DNA of 49,515 bases from a virus. Of the stretch, positions 9,243 through 30,190 are shown piece by piece (the first letter of the stretch is position 1; the number at the start of each line of letters is the position of its first letter). The notes under the pieces were generated by a model. The model did not search any database. It had not been told where the DNA came from and saw nothing but the letters and a program-made list of their open reading frames with translations. Location of the stretch: the IMG/VR virus record IMGVR_UViG_3300042988_000478, positions 1 to 49,515 of that record; one strand, 5' to 3'. Both the position numbers and the translations under genes were made by a program.

Positions 9243-9271
9243 TTGCATTATTATTTAATATATGCTATACT
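9243..9271 (+). promoter_or_regulatory. Strong promoter (TTGCAT-17-TGcTATACT) for a small RNA
   Basis: TTGCAT at 9243-9248, a 17-nt spacer, and TATACT at 9266-9271 with extended TG. Predicted start is about 9278-9279. No open reading frame follows, only structured sequence. Same architecture as the promoter at 26694-26722. Confidence 0.75.
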
Positions 9272-9278
9272 TATATAC

Positions 9279-9427
9279 ATCTTGGGTGATAAAAGGCTGT
9301 AGCTCCCCCAAGAGGCTATGGCCTTTTGTTATTAAAGAGTTTGCACCCCATCAAAGGGTTCTATCGTGAGGTAGAATAGTGGTGATATTTCAACATACCC
9401 AGAGAATACTCTATATGTGTGTTGGAA
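9279..9427 (+). ncRNA. Candidate small structured RNA
   Basis: Downstream of the promoter a 13-bp helix (9291-9303 with 9315-9327) has two G-U pairs and an 11-nt loop. The loop contains CCCAAG (9307-9312), which is complementary to CTTGGG at 9281-9286 just before the helix, so a pseudoknot or a switch between two folds is possible. Next comes a 7-bp hairpin capped by a GTGA tetraloop (9359-9376), enclosed by CACC/GGTG. A further hairpin lies near 9391-9426. No matching known class recognised; the 3' end is uncertain. Confidence 0.6.
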
Positions 9428-9712
9428 CAGTTATGGTTTGGGGGGACATTTCTTTTTCTTTTCTTTAATTCTTCTAAGGTACTTCTTAAGGATTCTTTTC
9501 ACTTTTCTTTAAAAGTAAAGAAGGTCGTCAGATATATCCCAATAGAATATCCTATCCAGATATATGAAGGTGTGATACGAGTATATATGATATATGTAAT
9601 ACATACATATGGTAGGTGAAAGTTGTGGAGGGTAATTAATCTAAATTGGTTCCGCATACCCCCGTACCCCTGCCACCAGCTATCTCCTATTTACATTTAT
9701 GATTTTCTATGC

Positions 9713-12093: not shown

Positions 12094-12467
12094 AGACGCA
12101 CATAGAACATACAAAAGACAAGAATACGCCACATACTAGACCACAAAACCCAAACGAATACACTTATCCACAGATAAACGTAAACCGAATATTGACTTTT
12201 TCTCTCACTCGTATATACTCACAATGAACAGCAGAAATATGTAGCCCAGATTATATAAAAATGCGCTTGGGGGTTTTCATTCCACCCGAATATGCAAATG
12301 GGGGTTTTACATTCTGTTGTTGGTCATTCATAAAGTATATTGGGTCGCAAACCCTTATACTATGTTGGGGTAATTCACAAGTGTTTTACTCTGATGAAGT
12401 CTACGGACAAAAATGATAGTAAACTATCAAAAGGGTACATTCAGTGTACGATACTAGGTGCTTGTAG
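12094..12467 (+). other. Gene-free leader before tRNA-Ile
   Basis: Contains the promoter at 12192-12219 and two GGGGGTTTT-type stretches (12270-12316), but no convincing gene. A ribosomal start with a long frame is absent. Confidence 0.5.
12192..12219 (+). promoter_or_regulatory. Promoter (TTGACT-16-TATACT) for tRNA and noncoding RNA region
   Basis: TTGACT at 12192-12197 and TATACT at 12214-12219, separated by 16 nt. No protein gene follows for 1.4 kb, so its products are the tRNA-Ile and the noncoding region after it. Confidence 0.65.
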
Positions 12468-12540
12468 TGGCGGTTAGTTCAGTTGGTAGAACACTCGTCT
12501 TATACACGGGCAGTCATAGGTTCAAGTCCTATACCGCCAA
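12468..12540 (+). tRNA. tRNA-Ile (anticodon TAT, reads AUA)
   Basis: Full cloverleaf: a 7-bp acceptor TGGCGGT/ACCGCCA, D-stem GTTC/GAAC, anticodon stem CTCGT/ACGGG with one G-U, loop CTTATAC, and T-stem ATAGG/CCTAT with loop TTCAAGT. Discriminator A at 12540; the full CCA is not encoded (A-CA). The TAT anticodon serves AUA, frequent in this A/T-rich genome. Confidence 0.92.
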
Positions 12541-13059
12541 CACAGGCACTTAGTAGTAAATACTTTTATAAAGTATACGTTCTATACAAAGGAGTTATCC
12601 ACAGGTGTGCAGTTGACATTAAATCAAAACCTGCTAGTATGGAACATGTGAGGGGCGCAGGTTCCTCACACAGCTAAAGTAGCCTACGGGTGTACACAGC
12701 TCTAGTTATATCTTAGGATATACACAACCCACCACATTCTAACATAGTGTAGCAAGGTGTGAGCATACACAGGTCGTCTGTTATCTCTCTCACTAGGAAG
12801 CGAAGCTAACCTTATCGTAAAATAGGGTACATGTGGTCTGTAGCGTGTGGGCGTTTCCAACACTCACACACTCTACTGGTAAAGCCATTGGGTTCTGGTC
12901 ATTCTTATGCATGTAAGCATTAAAAGCCATGTAAAAATGGTACTAACGTGTTCCCCATTACAACATACACCACAATTACCTTGTATGGTACAGTGCGCCA
13001 GTCCGCAAGGGCAAAGAAGCGACAATATAAACAGCGTGTTATGTGTATTGGGGACAAAT

Positions 13060-13132
13060 GGGCTAGTATGGTTACTAGGACGCAAAAGAAGGATAAGCGT
13101 ATATACTTAGGGTTCGATCCCCTTATAGCCCA
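13060..13132 (+). ncRNA. tRNA-like element with enlarged anticodon-arm loop
   Basis: A 73-nt unit. Acceptor GGGCTAG/ATAGCCC pairs 6 of 7; the T-arm is AGGG/CCCT with canonical loop TTCGATC; discriminator A then CA. The middle lacks a normal anticodon arm. Instead ACGC/GCGT encloses a 13-nt purine-rich loop containing AGAAGGA, so no anticodon can be read. Either a decayed tRNA or a tRNA mimic. Confidence 0.5.
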
Positions 13133-13156
13133 CAAGCCTACATTATGTAGGTGACA

Positions 13157-13237
13157 TGGACGGAAGTTAGCTATTACCACCACAACAGAAATGGAGTGGT
13201 ACCAGAGGTAATATAGGTGCAATTCCTGTACGTCCAC
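13157..13237 (+). ncRNA. Second tRNA-like element with nested stems
   Basis: Ends pair as TGGACG/CGTCCA. A T-arm-like ATAGG/CCTGT holds loop TGCAATT. Inside, ATTACC/GGTAAT encloses ACCAC/GTGGT with a 12-nt loop containing AGAAATGGA. No readable anticodon. It resembles the previous element in plan: acceptor plus T-arm plus an enlarged purine-rich loop. Confidence 0.4.
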
Positions 13238-13641
13238 AACCATTATCAAAATGGTGATAGTGGCAGTATTTATTGTGTAGAAAGACAATAGTCAATATAC
13301 GCTATACAATAGTGCGAGGATATTGGCAGAGAAGTTATTGCGGGTCGTGTGCTTTCAAGGTACACGTTGTTCGACGCACAAAGTCTAGATACATACAATT
13401 ACACAATTTTTTCAGATGTTCCGTGTAGTATGTATTTACGGTTGGTATTTACCAGATATTGAGTGTTTAGAGCAAACGGGCAGAACATGAAAAACGGCTG
13501 CTAACATGGTGTATGTTCAAGTATAAATGTCATTCCAACAATTCCGTAAATTGTGATAGAGTGTTCTATTGCGGTGAAAAGGTCAGTTTTGGTCATAGTT
13601 TTGAGGACTACACAGGGTGTTTCAAGTAAAAGCAGATGTTC

Positions 13642-13666
13642 TATGTGGGGTGCAATTCCCCACATA
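13642..13666 (+). ncRNA. Perfect 9-bp hairpin with TGCAATT loop
   Basis: TATGTGGGG (13642-13650) pairs with CCCCACATA (13658-13666). The 7-nt loop is identical to the T-arm-like loop at 13219-13225. It could mark the 3' end of the noncoding region, 32 nt before the next gene. Confidence 0.5.
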
Positions 13667-13697
13667 TCCTTATGTAGATTATTATTTAAGTACATTT

Positions 13698-13886
13698 ATG
13701 TTTGAAGATAAACAAATGTTCATGTTGTTTGACAAAAAAAACAAATTTTTTGCAACAAGAATTACAGCAATACATTTTGACATAACTGGTTCACCTACAT
13801 GTGTTGATTATTGTGCAAACAATAGTGATATGGGGCCAGTTGTAGAGTGTTGGAACGAAGATATTGTTTTATTAAAAGTAATTTAA
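13698..13886 (+). CDS. Small protein of unknown function
   Basis: A 62-residue protein from the ATG at 13698 (MFEDKQMFMLFDKKNKFFATRI), then HFDITGSPTCVDYCANN and an acidic end with CWNEDIVLLKVI. A longer frame from 13617 would run through the 13642 hairpin and is less likely. It starts the forward gene run leading to the amidoligases. Function unknown. Confidence 0.55.
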   Translation: MFEDKQMFMLFDKKNKFFATRITAIHFDITGSPTCVDYCANNSDMGPVVECWNEDIVLLKVI

Positions 13887-17390: not shown

Positions 17391-18560
17391 ATGTGTGGTA
17401 TTATTTTTGGAAGTAGAAAGGACGGGAAACCTATAGCAAAGGCACTACTAAAGAGGTACCGTAACCAAAGTCACCGTGGTAAACAGGGTTTTGGTTATGT
17501 GACAATAACAAATGGCAAACTTGGTGATGTCAAGCGTTTTGAGAATGAGAACGAAATGGAGGCAAGCATTATCAAAGAGACAGCAGGTGAGATACTTTTT
17601 CACCACCGCTTCCCTACGTCTACACCAAACCTTGCAGAGCTAAACCACCCATTCGTAATAGATGATGAGCGTTTTGCAAACAAGTACATTGTAATTCACA
17701 ATGGGGTTATATCAAACGCCCACAGTCTAAAATACGAACACGAAAAGAAAGGGTATTCTTATAAGTCATTCCTAGAAACTGTAACCACAGTAATAAAGCG
17801 TACCCTTGCAAGAAATGAGGAGGCGAGCGAAACTAAGACGACTGTATTTAACGATAGTGAGGCACTTGCCTTTGAGTTAGCAGAATACTTTGAGGGTATC
17901 AAGACTAAAATTGCTGCGATAGGGAGTATTGCTTTCATTTGTCTAGAGGTTGACAGGGACGATAATGTGTTGAAAATACACTATGGTCGCAATCATGGAA
18001 ACCCTATTGTTGTTGAGCGTGATCTGAAAAGTGGTATATACTTTTTCAAGTCAGAGGGAGGTGGCTACAAAATGGAAGCGGATCAGATTGCAACCATTGA
18101 CTATGCCACAGATGATGTGTCATTACAAGAGGTGGAAGTTGGAGAAACGTATACAAAGCCAAAATCAGCAACAAAGTGGTTAGAGGATAGGGAAAAGGAA
18201 AAAGCACGTATTGTTGGCTTCAATACAGACAAAGTTCGTAGTATTCCGTTGCATGAGATAGATATTGACGACGATAAGTCAAACCAGCCTATCATAGATG
18301 AGCTTGTTGGTGAGATTGAGACTAAAATTGCAGACTTGTCAGCAGAGGAAGAGGACGTTGTTCGGTGCATTAGCGACCTTAACCTACAAATTGCAGCAGA
18401 GAGAAACTATCGTGACAAAGATATGCTCACAATAGAGCGAGAACAATGGTGTCAAGAGCTTGTTCGTATACGAAAGGAAATGTCAAAACTAGAGGATCAG
18501 GTTGAGCAGATTACTGGTAACAGTGAGGCTCTTAAAGAGATACAAGAATATCATAGCTAA
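17391..18560 (+). CDS. Class-II glutamine amidotransferase with coiled-coil tail
   Basis: 389 residues. The N-terminus MCGIIFGSRKDG places the catalytic Cys at residue 2, exposed after Met removal. The usual NTN-type signatures follow in altered form: SHRGKQGFGYV near 27, HHRFPTSTPNLAELNHPF near 66, IVIHNGVISNA near 100, and a SEALAFELAEYFEG acidic site near 153. It would hydrolyse glutamine to release ammonia for an amide ligase. Residues about 305-385 form a charged coiled coil (LSAEEEDVVRC to EDQVEQITG) not needed for catalysis, perhaps for binding the amidoligases. It follows the second amidoligase by 5 nt. Confidence 0.87.
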   Translation: MCGIIFGSRKDGKPIAKALLKRYRNQSHRGKQGFGYVTITNGKLGDVKRFENENEMEASIIKETAGEILFHHRFPTSTPNLAELNHPFVIDDERFANKYIVIHNGVISNAHSLKYEHEKKGYSYKSFLETVTTVIKRTLARNEEASETKTTVFNDSEALAFELAEYFEGIKTKIAAIGSIAFICLEVDRDDNVLKIHYGRNHGNPIVVERDLKSGIYFFKSEGGGYKMEADQIATIDYATDDVSLQEVEVGETYTKPKSATKWLEDREKEKARIVGFNTDKVRSIPLHEIDIDDDKSNQPIIDELVGEIETKIADLSAEEEDVVRCISDLNLQIAAERNYRDKDMLTIEREQWCQELVRIRKEMSKLEDQVEQITGNSEALKEIQEYHS

Positions 18561-18717
18561 ATAAGGCTAAAATAGCATATGCCCTTAAAACGCCCAAAAT
18601 TGAGCGTGGTGAGGAGTTTATATCAAAAGGTATATTGGTACTATTTTGGTGTAAACTATCCACTACAGTCAAATTTGAGCCTTATAGGGGTATATTTAAA
18701 AGCTACCTAACCACACT
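18561..18717 (+). other. Intergenic region with two copies of a recurring motif
   Basis: 157 bp without a gene. CGCCCAAAATTGAGCG at 18591-18606 and GTCAAATTTGAGCC at 18669-18682 belong to a motif also found at 9785, 11305 and 20281. Probable binding sites or transcription-control elements. Confidence 0.45.
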
Positions 18718-18981
18718 ATGATTACTACTACAAATTCAGAACAAGAGAACATTCCAACAACATTGTCAATGTTCGACACACATGCACCGTTGGCAACAGT
18801 ACACGACTTTTATCAAGAGTATGAAAGAAAGGTAAAAATCATTCGTGGTGCAAACTACAAAGCAGACGCAAAGGGTTTTATTGGGTGGCTCTCTACACAA
18901 CACGGCAGAATTATTATCAAGGTTAGAGATACACCTCCTCCTAAACTAACAGCACTATTACCATATAAGGTTGACTTATAG
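18718..18981 (+). CDS. Small protein of unknown function
   Basis: An 87-residue protein beginning MITTTNSEQENIPTTLSMF, continuing with HDFYQEYERKVKIIRGANYKAD and ending with a Pro-rich turn (RDTPPPKLTALLPYKVDL). It stands alone between two regulatory gaps. No family recognised. Starts at the ATG at 18718 without a Shine-Dalgarno. Confidence 0.6.
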   Translation: MITTTNSEQENIPTTLSMFDTHAPLATVHDFYQEYERKVKIIRGANYKADAKGFIGWLSTQHGRIIIKVRDTPPPKLTALLPYKVDL

Positions 18982-19011: not shown

Positions 19012-19040
19012 TTGACTTATGTAATACCATTTGTTATACT
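19012..19040 (+). promoter_or_regulatory. Promoter (TTGACT-17-TGtTATACT) for the ATP-grasp operon
   Basis: TTGACT at 19012-19017, a 17-nt spacer, and TATACT at 19035-19040 with extended TG. Predicted start near 19047, giving a 210-nt leader full of palindromes ahead of the gene at 19258. Confidence 0.7.
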
Positions 19041-19061
19041 ACTTCCAACAAGGACTTTGAC

Positions 19062-19206
19062 AACAGACATATAGCTATATATACCTTATATAAAGACATA
19101 TATAGCTATATATAAGTTTAAATATAGCTATATAGACATATATATAGCTATATACCTTATATAAGGTATATGTCTTATATAAGGTATATTATATATTATA
19201 ACATAT
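19062..19206. repeat. Dense AT palindromes (TATAGCTATA and ACCTTATATAAGGT)
   Basis: The self-complementary core ATAGCTATAT recurs at least four times. CCTTATATAA appears three times, once as a perfect palindrome ACCTTATATAAGGT. Base composition is almost entirely A/T. The tract can form cruciforms or RNA hairpins and may be a replication origin, an iteron array or an attenuating leader. Confidence 0.6.
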
Positions 19207-20019: not shown

Positions 20020-20236
20020 AATAAGAGAGTGGGACGAAAGAGATGACGAGAGTTTATTCTCAAGAGAACACCCATATATTACTTTTGATGAGTTTGAGGG
20101 GGCGTTTCCTGTTTTTACTAGAGGGCCGATACAGTCTACAGGCAGCTTCCAACCAGACGAGTTTATCAAAGCTCTAGACGAATTAGCAAAGTCACCAGAC
20201 GAGGAAGATATAGAGATAGACGATAGTGATATGTAG
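20009..20236 (+). CDS. Small highly acidic protein, candidate substrate of the ligase system
   Basis: A 75-residue protein in which about one third of residues are Asp or Glu. The N-terminus is MDNEIREWDERDDES, the middle has a FTRGPIQSTGSFQP linker, and the end is EEDIEIDDSDM. It overlaps the ATP-grasp gene by 11 nt, so the two are translationally coupled. Acidic side chains are typical targets of amidoligases and ATP-grasp peptide ligases, so it may be the protein that is modified, or a DNA-mimic inhibitor. Both are inference. Confidence 0.55.
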   Translation: MDNEIREWDERDDESLFSREHPYITFDEFEGAFPVFTRGPIQSTGSFQPDEFIKALDELAKSPDEEDIEIDDSDM

Positions 20237-20344
20237 TAGAGGTAGGTAGTATCATTTTTAATAAATACGCCTCACAGTGAGCCGTTTTGAGCTTTCTAGG
20301 GGTATGTATGGTAGCCACACAGCTACCATTTTTAATGCAATAAT

Positions 20345-20515
20345 ATGACACAATTAGGATCACCACCATACAGTGTGGTGAAAAAAGGAAACCGTTTTAT
20401 TGTTTATGACGGTGATGTTTTTGTTGATAGGTTCAAAGATAAAAGGTTGGCGGATAATTTTGTACAATATTTAATAGGGTTTTCAGAGTTTAAATCAAAT
20501 GACAATACAGGATAG
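20345..20515 (+). CDS. Small protein upstream of helicase-primase
   Basis: A 56-residue protein (MTQLGSPPYSVVKKGNRFIVY) with a short beta-rich core, KDKRLADNFVQYLIGF and a KSNDNTG end. Its last 17 bases overlap the start of the TOPRIM-helicase gene, suggesting coupling. Preceded by an intergenic motif copy at 20268-20310. Function unknown. Confidence 0.55.
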   Translation: MTQLGSPPYSVVKKGNRFIVYDGDVFVDRFKDKRLADNFVQYLIGFSEFKSNDNTG

Positions 20516-22915: not shown

Positions 22916-23119
22916 ATGGCTATGCGAGAAAAAGATTTTGGGTACGAGTATCCAATTAGAGCAAGAAGGTACGATTGTGAAATAAATGTAAGACGTATGC
23001 GAAAAGACGAGATGCCTGAAGATGGGATAACGTATTATTGTGAACAAGATGGAAGCATCTACTCTGATGGAGAACCAAACTTTGAAATCATTGAAACACT
23101 TAACGGATATAACCAGTAA
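22916..23119 (+). CDS. Small acidic protein, LNGYN C-terminus
   Basis: A 67-residue protein beginning MAMREKDFGYEYPIRARRYD and ending FEIIETLNGYNQ. The region YCEQDGSIYSDGEPNFE is acidic. Starts 2 nt after the previous stop. Its 3' end shares the stretch CTTAACGGATATAAC with the next gene. Function unknown. Confidence 0.55.
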   Translation: MAMREKDFGYEYPIRARRYDCEINVRRMRKDEMPEDGITYYCEQDGSIYSDGEPNFEIIETLNGYNQ

Positions 23120-26026: not shown

Positions 26027-26668
26027 ATGGAAAATAAATCTATTACAAATGGGTTTATTATATTAACAGAAGTTGCTTCATCTAAAGTTAGGAAACTCAT
26101 AGAGGAAAACCATTACAGCCATAAATGCACACCAAACCACTTTCTATCATTTGATATTAATAATGGCTTGGGGGGGATACAGTTAGGTTTTGGGATAAGA
26201 CCTCACATTAAATCGTCTGTGAGCAAATTAATAACAAAAGATAATTATTGTGAGTTTGATAGAATGTGGGTTGATGACAGATTACCTAAGAATAGCGAAT
26301 CACAAATAATTAGTTTGTTATTGAAGTATCTTAAAATAAATTACCCTAGAATTAAATTTGTTGTAACCTATGCAGACGGTTCTGTTGGTAATCGTGGAAT
26401 AATTTATCAAGCAACAAACGGCATTGAAATAAAACCTATACTTTGTGATTTTTATGAGACCGAAGATGGAGAGAGAATACACCCAGTATCAATGTGGCAT
26501 CGCCACAAAACAAGAGCTTGGTCATTTTTACAGAAAGAATATCCAAATATAAAACATATAAAGGGAACAAAGAAGAAACCTATTTACCAATATAGGTATG
26601 TTTATGTACTTGATAAAAAATTAAGAAAACAGTTTTTAAAAGAATTAGGAATTAGTAGATTAAATTAA
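26027..26668 (+). CDS. mom: Mom-like DNA adenine modification protein (GNAT-fold)
   Basis: 213 residues. Phage Mu Mom adds a carbamoylmethyl group to N6 of adenine, protecting DNA from restriction. Family features here are IEENHYSHKC near 27, FDRMWVDDRLPKNSESQIIS near 82, VVTYADGSVGNRGIIYQATN near 115 with the conserved Tyr-Ala-Asp and YQATN, and a basic C-terminus (YVLDKKLRKQFLKELG). Many phage genes with this pattern are annotated as adenine methylcarbamoylation proteins. Unlike Mu there is no com gene next to it, and expression may be tied to the operon. The Glu/Asp-rich substrate site is intact. Confidence 0.8.
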   Translation: MENKSITNGFIILTEVASSKVRKLIEENHYSHKCTPNHFLSFDINNGLGGIQLGFGIRPHIKSSVSKLITKDNYCEFDRMWVDDRLPKNSESQIISLLLKYLKINYPRIKFVVTYADGSVGNRGIIYQATNGIEIKPILCDFYETEDGERIHPVSMWHRHKTRAWSFLQKEYPNIKHIKGTKKKPIYQYRYVYVLDKKLRKQFLKELGISRLN

Positions 26669-26693: not shown

Positions 26694-26722
26694 TTGTATT
26701 TTGTAATACAATATGATATACT
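26694..26722 (+). promoter_or_regulatory. Strong promoter (TTGTAT-17-TGaTATACT) for the 26.73-kb RNA
   Basis: TTGTAT at 26694-26699, a 17-nt spacer, and TATACT at 26717-26722 with extended TG. Predicted start about 26729-26731, within 4 nt of the closing helix of the RNA described next. Confidence 0.75.
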
Positions 26723-26728
26723 TCCTGT

Positions 26729-26960
26729 TGAATTGATATATCCAGCCCCCACCGAAAGGTGGGAAGACTTGAGAGGTCTTAGCGTAATGAACTAATTTCA
26801 TAAAATGATTCACCCCAACTTATGTTTGGGGTTGGGTATATCAAATGGTGTGTAGATGACGACGGTTCTCTTGGCGAGTAGCTACCCTCTAGGCGCATGG
26901 TAGTAATTGGTATGATTCCAAAAACTGTCGACACCTGCACATCAGACAGGTTTAATAATA
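26729..26960 (+). ncRNA. Candidate multibranched structured RNA upstream of the SSB gene
   Basis: An 11-bp closing helix pairs 26733-26743 with 26834-26844. Inside lie four hairpins: CCCACC-GAAA-GGTGGG (26748-26763), AAGACTT-GAG-AGGTCTT (26764-26780), a bulged stem TGAA.../...TTCA (about 26788-26813), and CCCCAA/TTGGGG (26813-26831). The five-way junction starts at the predicted transcription start. A further 115 nt reach the SSB-like gene, with GTAG/CTAC and CTGTC/GACAG stems. No terminator follows, so it may be a leader as well as an RNA. No known class recognised. Confidence 0.65.
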
Positions 26961-26971
26961 ATTTAAATAAT

Positions 26972-27337
26972 ATGAGTAAAGCAAAAGTAACATTAACAAA
27001 AGTATTTCGTGGAGAACAAGAGACACCATATGGTCTGCGTACAAAGGTTGGAATTAAGATTCAAGAGGAAGATATTATTCTTGAAGATGGACGAAGCGCA
27101 AATGTAGCAGATAAGTGGTTGACAATGTTGGCAAAACCTGGTACTACTACAGGAACAGAGGAATGGGAGACGGGAGCCAGTGTTGAGATTGAGATAAGTG
27201 AGAAGAAAGGATACTACAATTTCAAGGTTGTTGGAAACAGTTTGGAGGACAGGGTTAAGAAGTTGGAGGACACCGTATTTGGTGCAAAGATTGTTAAGGA
27301 AGATGAACCTCTTAATATTGACGATGTAGATTTCTAA
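26972..27337 (+). CDS. ssb: Probable single-stranded-DNA-binding protein
   Basis: 121 residues from the ATG at 26972 (MSKAKVTLTKVFRGEQETPY). It is beta-rich as expected of an OB fold (GLRTKVGIKIQEEDIILEDG, ASVEIEISEKKGYYNFKVVG), and the acidic C-terminus DEPLNIDDVDF resembles SSB tails that recruit partner proteins. A longer frame from 26897 lies in the leader RNA and is rejected. The gene begins the replication/recombination run 26972-28786 and may be controlled by the RNA upstream. Confidence 0.65.
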   Translation: MSKAKVTLTKVFRGEQETPYGLRTKVGIKIQEEDIILEDGRSANVADKWLTMLAKPGTTTGTEEWETGASVEIEISEKKGYYNFKVVGNSLEDRVKKLEDTVFGAKIVKEDEPLNIDDVDF

Positions 27338-27341
27338 TATC

Positions 27342-27830
27342 ATGCATGAAGAACTATTACAAAAGATACAAGAGCACAGACTGTTGACACTACAGATAGG
27401 AAGTCTTTTGTCTGGTTTGAAACATGATGACAATTTTGAGAATGAGACTGGTGTGGATAGTTGGTATGATTACATCTCCCAACCAGAAATAGGTCTGTCT
27501 AATGCAGAAGCAAACAAACTTATGTTGGTTGATAATATTTTTAAAGACGTAGATGTCGTACAACTTGTTAATATACCATTCAAAAATCTGCTTGTCATAG
27601 CGAAGACAGACAAGCCCACAGAACATCTGACAGACGCAGAGGTATTGTCTCATAAGGATTTGAAAGAAAGGCTCTATGAGAAGAAGACAGAAGACACTAT
27701 CAACAGGACATACAAATATATGGTAATGAAGAAATGTGTTGAGACTGGCAATCTAAGCAAAGTTCATGATATAGAAAGTGAGACAATAGAAGAGACGTTT
27801 AATTTAAACGAAGATGGAATACGAGATTAG
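27342..27830 (+). CDS. Protein of unknown function in DNA-metabolism run
   Basis: 162 residues, mostly helical (MHEELLQKIQEHRLLTLQIG), then GVDSWYDYISQPEIGLSNAEANKLMLV, and a Glu-rich end with ESETIEETFNLNEDGIRD. The helical core and a GLSNAEA turn suggest a helix-turn-helix-like or adaptor protein, but this is not certain. It starts 4 nt after SSB and overlaps the next gene by 17 nt. Confidence 0.6.
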   Translation: MHEELLQKIQEHRLLTLQIGSLLSGLKHDDNFENETGVDSWYDYISQPEIGLSNAEANKLMLVDNIFKDVDVVQLVNIPFKNLLVIAKTDKPTEHLTDAEVLSHKDLKERLYEKKTEDTINRTYKYMVMKKCVETGNLSKVHDIESETIEETFNLNEDGIRD

Positions 27831-27990
27831 TAAAGGTCAAATTCTACAAACACTTGAGGACATTTGGCAAATGTTCCCCGATAAAGACTTTGGTCAGATA
27901 ATTGAGATGACGGTTGGTAAGGAGATATTCTATCTAAATGATAGACATCTAATAGAAGTCCTTAGGGATTTCCAACTTCAGAATATGTGA
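27814..27990 (+). CDS. Small acidic protein
   Basis: A 58-residue protein (MEYEISKGQILQTLEDIWQM), then FPDKDFGQIIEMTVGKEIFY and ends LRDFQLQNM. It overlaps the previous gene by 17 nt and is followed 1 nt later by the nuclease gene. Function unknown. Confidence 0.55.
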   Translation: MEYEISKGQILQTLEDIWQMFPDKDFGQIIEMTVGKEIFYLNDRHLIEVLRDFQLQNM

Positions 27991-27991
27991 T

Positions 27992-28786
27992 ATGATATAT
28001 AAATTCGACAGTGGGCAACATGTCCACGCAATGGTTGATGATGACGGAAATGTGCGTCCACTCACGGGGACAACAAGTGTCCTTGATGTTTTGGCAAAAC
28101 CTCTTACATGGTGGGCCTCTGGTCTTGCCTGCCAAGAAATGGGGTGGCACCCAAACAAGGTTGATGGTAAGTTTATAAATAAAACGGAAAGACTTGCCCA
28201 CACCTCAAAAGAGTTTGAAAAGATAAAGGCCCTAACTCCAGAAGAGTATTTTGCAAAACTAGATACAGCTTATGCAGCACATAATAATGTAAAGAACAAA
28301 GCTGCTGTTGGAGGAACAAGTTTACATAACAAGTGTGAGGAGTGGATAAAGGGACAAATTGACGGCACAAACACACCACCAGATAAACAGATATTGCCTC
28401 TTGTAAAGTGGGCAAATATGAATGTTGAAAAGTTCTTGTGGTCTGAAGTTAATTGTTTCTCAACCGAACATTGGTTGGGAGGTATAAGTGATATTGGTTT
28501 TCTTGACAAAGAAGGGCGTGTTGGTATTCTTGACATAAAGAGTAGTAAAGACGCATATGCAAGCCAATTCATACAGTGTGCTGGATATGATATACAAATC
28601 TCAGAGAATGGTGGATATACACCGACAGGAGAGAAAGTGTTTGATCTTGATGGTAAGAAGATAGATTACTATGCAATCCTTCCATTCGGTATGGCTGAAC
28701 CAGAAGTTATTGAGCGACACGACACACAACAGCTTAAAGAAGCTTTCCTTGCGTGTCTAAAATTGTATAGAATATTAAACAATTAA
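27992..28786 (+). CDS. PD-(D/E)XK nuclease (RecB/Cas4-like exonuclease)
   Basis: 264 residues. The core motif is GGISDIGFLDKEGRVGILDIKSSK near 162-185, providing the catalytic Asp and DxK, with a His at GTSLHNKCEEW near 111 and Gln in FIQCAGYDIQI near 193. An N-terminal domain (about 1-95) carries GTTSVLDVLAKPLTWWASG. Such nucleases process DNA ends in phage recombination and replication. It sits directly after the SSB-like operon. No Cys cluster is present, so it is not an iron-sulfur Cas4. Confidence 0.83.
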   Translation: MIYKFDSGQHVHAMVDDDGNVRPLTGTTSVLDVLAKPLTWWASGLACQEMGWHPNKVDGKFINKTERLAHTSKEFEKIKALTPEEYFAKLDTAYAAHNNVKNKAAVGGTSLHNKCEEWIKGQIDGTNTPPDKQILPLVKWANMNVEKFLWSEVNCFSTEHWLGGISDIGFLDKEGRVGILDIKSSKDAYASQFIQCAGYDIQISENGGYTPTGEKVFDLDGKKIDYYAILPFGMAEPEVIERHDTQQLKEAFLACLKLYRILNN

Positions 28787-30037: not shown

Positions 30038-30104
30038 TGCGGGTCTCAGGTGAGTGTTGGTGGCCCATAACCATTGGAAACGAGTTCGATTCTCGTACCC
30101 GCAT
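30038..30104 (+). tRNA. Atypical tRNA-Met (anticodon CAT) with short D-arm
   Basis: Acceptor TGCGGGT/ACCCGCA and T-stem ACGAG/CTCGT with loop TTCGATT are perfect. The anticodon loop reads CCCATAA with CAT. Oddities: the D-arm region is only 14 nt, position 33 is C (as in eukaryotic initiators), and the base after the acceptor is T rather than A. It may be a degraded or specialised tRNA. Confidence 0.55.
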
Positions 30105-30120
30105 CTTTGTGTACTAATAT

Positions 30121-30190
30121 GCCTTCGCCTATTGGATTAGAAGCGGGCGTTCTAAGCCTGGCTATGGGGGTTCGAATCCCTCCGAGGGCA
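30121..30190 (+). tRNA. tRNA-Arg (anticodon TCT)
   Basis: Acceptor GCCTTCG/CGAGGGC with one G-U, a reduced D-arm CTA/TAG, anticodon stem CGGGC/GCCTG with loop GTTCTAA, T-stem GGGGG/CCCTC with loop TTCGAAT, discriminator A then CA. The anticodon TCT reads AGA. Confidence 0.88.

Follow-up and report, generated by a model that had tools for sequence, protein, structure and literature searches.

The window analysed here is the whole of one virus record of 49,515 bases (IMG/VR record IMGVR_UViG_3300042988_000478), which carries a 242-nt direct terminal repeat and is therefore probably a complete genome. Its genes include those for a portal, a terminase, a primase-helicase, an exonuclease, a chaperonin, an amidoligase and a Mom-like protein. 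The host is probably a member of the Patescibacteria (Paceibacterota), since a search of the genome collection for relatives of the exonuclease found just one (45% identity), on a Candidatus Paceibacterota MAG contig; this is a single contig that could itself be viral. Shine-Dalgarno-like motifs are found at 4 of 41 phage genes. Between positions 23084 and 25780 the window also holds runs of small ORFs whose common C-terminal endings (LNGYN-like, LQAKELLK) form direct repeats across gene ends.

The element described here is a structured RNA between the Mom-like and SSB-like genes, a placement given in an earlier note on this DNA and confirmed here. The SSB-like protein has an acidic tail, NIDDVDF, where its relatives mostly end in DDIPF-like residues (alignment of 8); searches of Pfam, PHROG and the PDB returned no match for it, and its fold model is poor (pLDDT 54). 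An upstream in-frame ATG at 26897 is unsupported as its start, because most relatives in the same alignment start near the equivalent of 26972. The stretch immediately before that codon has a mean unpaired probability of about 0.5-0.6.

Table 1. Features of the locus, in window coordinates.
Feature	Position	Strand	Basis
Mom-like gene, upstream, outside the leader	26027..26668	+	Pfam PF25680, E=5e-41
Perfect inverted repeat TTGTATT-TTGT-AATACAA over the -35 (candidate operator)	26694..26711	.	sequence
Extended -10 promoter, TTGTAT-17-TGATATACT	26694..26722	+	sequence; motif statistics
Domain I, four hairpins within an 11-bp closing helix	26733..26844	+	fold z -4.14; helix probability 0.97
Domain II, imperfect helix with hairpin cap CTACC/GGTAG	26847..26943	+	z -3.54; probability 0.95-0.99
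A/U-rich stretch leading to the SSB-like start codon, lacking a Shine-Dalgarno	26951..26971	+	sequence
SSB-like gene, first cistron behind the leader	26972..27337	+	alignment of 8
Downstream cistrons of 162 aa and 58 aa (function unassigned), then exonuclease	27342..28786	+	ORFs
PHROG exonuclease	27992-28786	+	phrog_298, E=1.2e-11

The promoter consists of TTGTAT (26694-26699), a 17-nt spacer, TG (26714-26715) and TATACT (26717-26722), and predicts a transcription start at about 26729-26731, that is, 2-4 nt 5' of the 11-bp helix. The promoter and the helix of the earlier proposal can be read directly in the sequence. In a generic sigma-70 scan, promoter-like sites showed no excess, and the present promoter was not listed. 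The extended -10 motif TGNTATA(A/C)T is, by computation, strongly concentrated between genes: 11 of its 15 sites in this phage are intergenic, compared with 11.6% of the DNA (P=4.5e-8), as are 19 of 24 in a relative, G010 (P=5e-11), and 150 of 279 across 145 related loci, where 20% would be expected (P=2e-35). Overlapping ancestry among the loci makes these P values optimistic, but the pattern is strong. In these 145 loci the distance to the gene peaks at 5-10 nt 5' of the ATG, a spacing that implies leaderless mRNAs. Leaderless placement is seen for 37 of 119 sites of the TATAAT variant versus 1 of 31 of the TATACT variant, and it is this latter, almost never leaderless form that precedes the element. 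The promoter is therefore independently supported by a group-specific motif. The inverted repeat over its -35 region, a possible operator, is the sole copy in the window even with 3 mismatches allowed.

Domain I is closed by the pairing of TTGATATATCC (26733-26743) with GGGTATATCAA (26834-26844), which includes one G-U pair, and its four hairpins lie at 26748-53/26758-63 (with a GAAA loop at 26754-26757), 26764-70/26774-80, 26787-91/26797-801 and 26812-18/26826-32. This structure evaluates to -41.7 kcal/mol, compared with a minimum free energy (MFE) of -43.6 kcal/mol for 26725-26860, and none of 200 dinucleotide shuffles folds as well as this stretch (z -4.14). Folds were predicted with ViennaRNA, used here without pseudoknots. 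For a transcript from 26730, the 11-bp helix has a pair probability of 0.97, the GAAA hairpin 0.99, hairpin 2 0.91, hairpin 3 0.74 and hairpin 4 0.53. The five-way junction proposed in the earlier note is thus borne out in its closing helix, its GAAA hairpin and its stability beyond shuffles; its least certain part is hairpin 4, which leaves room for a variant of the five-way arrangement. When the folded sequence ends at 27072, the 5' end pairs with SSB-like codons at about 27046-27062 at the expense of the 11-bp helix, which returns to 0.97 once the whole SSB-like ORF is included. An outer helix, CCUGU/ACAGG (26724-26728/26946-26950), was also predicted and was dropped because the predicted start falls downstream of its 5' strand.

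The RNA had been described as a single domain, and that description holds for domain I but missed the large domain II that follows it. The helix of domain II spans 21 positions with two mismatches (26847-26867/26923-26943), and the domain alone beats all dinucleotide shuffles (z -3.54). The computed fold of both domains together (26730-26950) reaches a z of -4.86 and beats all 200 shuffles. Each keeps its fold in nearly all downstream contexts, with domain II at about 0.99 in most. A tRNA cloverleaf can be drawn for domain II, but it is 4.2 kcal/mol worse than the MFE and fails the sequence tests: the best alignment to 128 tRNAs scores 44.5 against a null of 42.5 +/- 4.1, and a search of the window with RF00005 found three places, none of them at domain II.

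Within the contig, the leader region ranks among the more structured parts but is not the most structured, which is 19032-19203, an array of AT-rich TATAGCTATA palindromes between convergent TGTTATACT/TGTTATAAT sites. A very stable long hairpin (z -5.5) occupies 18540-18720 before an ORF at 18718, and, judged by eye, similar GAGC-TAGGGGTAT text occurs again at 20220-20345, before an ORF near 20346. At 9263-9460 a structured stretch (z -3.7) directly adjoins the promoter TGCTATACT and has no ORF shortly after it, which makes it a candidate for a free RNA. About 1.4 kb around the tRNA-Ile (12240-13700) holds no clear genes, several structured stretches, two T-arm-like GGTGCAATTCC hairpins and, at 13179-13229, a weak similarity to RAGATH-21 (19.5 bits, gathering threshold 70.3). 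Four tRNA-like elements missed by ARAGORN (30042-30107, 30121-30190, 13056-13131 and 13151-13230) gave better alignments to real tRNAs than did any of their shuffles, and RF00005 assigns 24 bits to the one at 30121; they are possibly eroded tRNA genes. The relative G010 has 21 tRNAs.

In agreement with the earlier observation that the RNA resembles no known class, an Rfam search of the whole window at the gathering threshold recovers only its two tRNAs, and at E<=10 there is no credible match over the element. Neither blastn of the element against 50,697 phage records nor a search of IMG/VR for its exact 26-nt core gave a match. Relatives were reached through the Mom-like, exonuclease and HNH-like proteins; the SSB-like and terminase proteins led to none in IMG/VR. 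Covariance models, one per domain and each built from a single sequence, were run on 72 related records (22 + 50) plus 100 further loci and detected no homologue. Their sole extra match, of model R2 to the tRNA-Ile region of this phage (E=0.6), is carried by a long helix. Since models of this kind reach only fairly close relatives, the missing homologues are weak evidence; they also leave no covariation across relatives by which to judge the fold, and the lack of homologues neither supports nor refutes it. No such RNA adjoins the SSB-like gene in seven relatives or the Mom-like gene in seven relatives. A leader conserved specifically with the SSB-like gene is thus unsupported.

Between the RNA and the ATG at 26972, 22 nt downstream, the computation finds no terminator-like site on the + strand. 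Of the options offered in the earlier note, this favours a leader of the SSB-like operon rather than a free RNA. The locus has the layout of a generic structured leader: a promoter directly upstream, a stable fold and no terminator before the ORF. Related phages provide a wider setting, as leaders of 60-400 nt behind the TGNTATAMT motif have a median z of -1.41, compared with -0.27 for other intergenic DNA (P=8e-4; this window and T-run stretches excluded). They precede different genes, among them a transglycosylase homologue and unknown ORFs, and therefore fit a general feature of operon heads. Strongly folded leaders right behind such promoters lie at L041 7354-7500 (G018 27354-27500), L016 3458/4120, L144 2634 and L165 4535. 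An RNA at G018 27368-27490, with a GNRA hairpin inside a long helix, was noted for its resemblance and set aside as a look-alike, being unmatched by model R1. The leaders of relatives show no enrichment for a helix that closes the 5' end (10 of 30 versus 161 of 631, P=0.22), which weakens a sealed 5' end as a group-wide mechanism.

We tentatively propose, with about even confidence, that the element, roughly 240 nt long, serves as a structured 5' leader to a replication operon (SSB-like, 162 aa, 58 aa, exonuclease) and most likely acts in cis. The extended -10 promoter would initiate a transcript that reaches the 11-bp helix after its first 2-4 nt, the proximity of which to the predicted start would seal the 5' end of the mRNA. 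A sealed end may slow 5'-dependent decay of the operon mRNA, the structured block would insulate and may also gate translation of the SSB-like gene, and ribosomes would initiate at the partly open A/U-rich stretch without a Shine-Dalgarno site. We infer the start site, co-transcription and the stabilising or gating role.

A free or processed RNA, cut from the SSB-like mRNA and acting in trans, would suit a big compact fold with its own promoter, and other promoter-headed structured stretches occur in this phage (for example 9276-9460, z -3.7, with no ORF close behind). This reading is nevertheless rather unlikely, as neither a terminator nor a clear processing site precedes the SSB-like ATG, and the sequence of domain II is not tRNA-like, so that tRNA-type processing is not indicated. 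It is quite unlikely that the element represents a new class of RNA, in which a leader of two domains would enable a Patescibacteria phage to sense its SSB-like protein or the state of infection and to set expression of the replication operon, in what may be a system that lacks Shine-Dalgarno sites and has leaderless genes. A riboswitch-like response to a ligand or to temperature would find a multi-branched helix close to the transcript start, and the duplex between the 5' end and the SSB-like codons (-28.8, null -21.2 +/- 2.7) is equalled by only 4 of 300 shuffles; however, the complementary stretch lies partly upstream of the predicted start, shortening of the 5' end weakens the duplex, and with neither a credible Rfam match at E<=10 nor conservation we regard such a switch as very unlikely. 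That the structure is non-functional or the remnant of a decayed element would fit the lack of homologues and the several stretches of the contig that are equally or more structured, but two adjacent domains, each past all shuffles and placed exactly behind a supported promoter, make this highly improbable.

The SSB-like gene itself suggests a further alternative, in which excess SSB-like protein binds the leader, spreads over the A/U-rich stretch GUUUAAUAAUAAUUUAAAUAAU and blocks ribosomes. In T4 gene 32, binding of gp32 is nucleated by a folded element and extends from there across the UUAA(A) repeats at the start codon (PMC535899, PMC3014915). The T4/RB69 gene 32 operator and the present locus share their layout, in which a folded element precedes an A/U-rich stretch that overlaps the SSB(-like) start, and the 22 nt before the ATG contain UUUAAU and UUUAAAU here. 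The T4 operator, however, is a pseudoknot of about 28 nt accompanied by a Shine-Dalgarno site (PMC535899, PMC3014915), whereas the leader described here is a two-domain fold of about 215 nt, modelled as nested helices by a program without pseudoknots and with none recognised, and has no Shine-Dalgarno site. A/U-rich regions before start codons are common in this phage, the model leaves the stretch concerned only about half unpaired, and the SSB identity is putative, as the database searches and the poor fold model described above indicate. The parallel to gene 32 is attractive, but the leader is absent from seven related phages that have the SSB-like gene, and autoregulation of this type appears unlikely.

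Gene expression in Patescibacteria phages is little known, and the promoter motif, a by-product of this analysis, may outweigh the RNA itself. It provides a usable promoter signature for the related phages, in which promoters often have the spacing that implies leaderless mRNAs while a subset heads long folded leaders, and the survey yields a list of candidate regulatory RNAs.

The proposed cis-acting leader may be compared with several known systems. Among these are the 5'-terminal stem-loops of the ompA type, which protect bacterial mRNAs and likewise place a helix within a few nucleotides of the 5' end; the leader here is much larger, and its start site, and with it the position of the helix, is a predicted one. 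Among large structured RNAs, GOLLD and ROOL have been reported in phages. Both are large and ornate (PMC12286853), whereas the present leader is smaller, lies directly before an ORF and has no Rfam match. In the tisB mRNA, a standby site serves a sequestered ribosome-binding site about 100 nt away and needs S1 (PMC7708055); here, by contrast, the start codon region follows directly after the fold.
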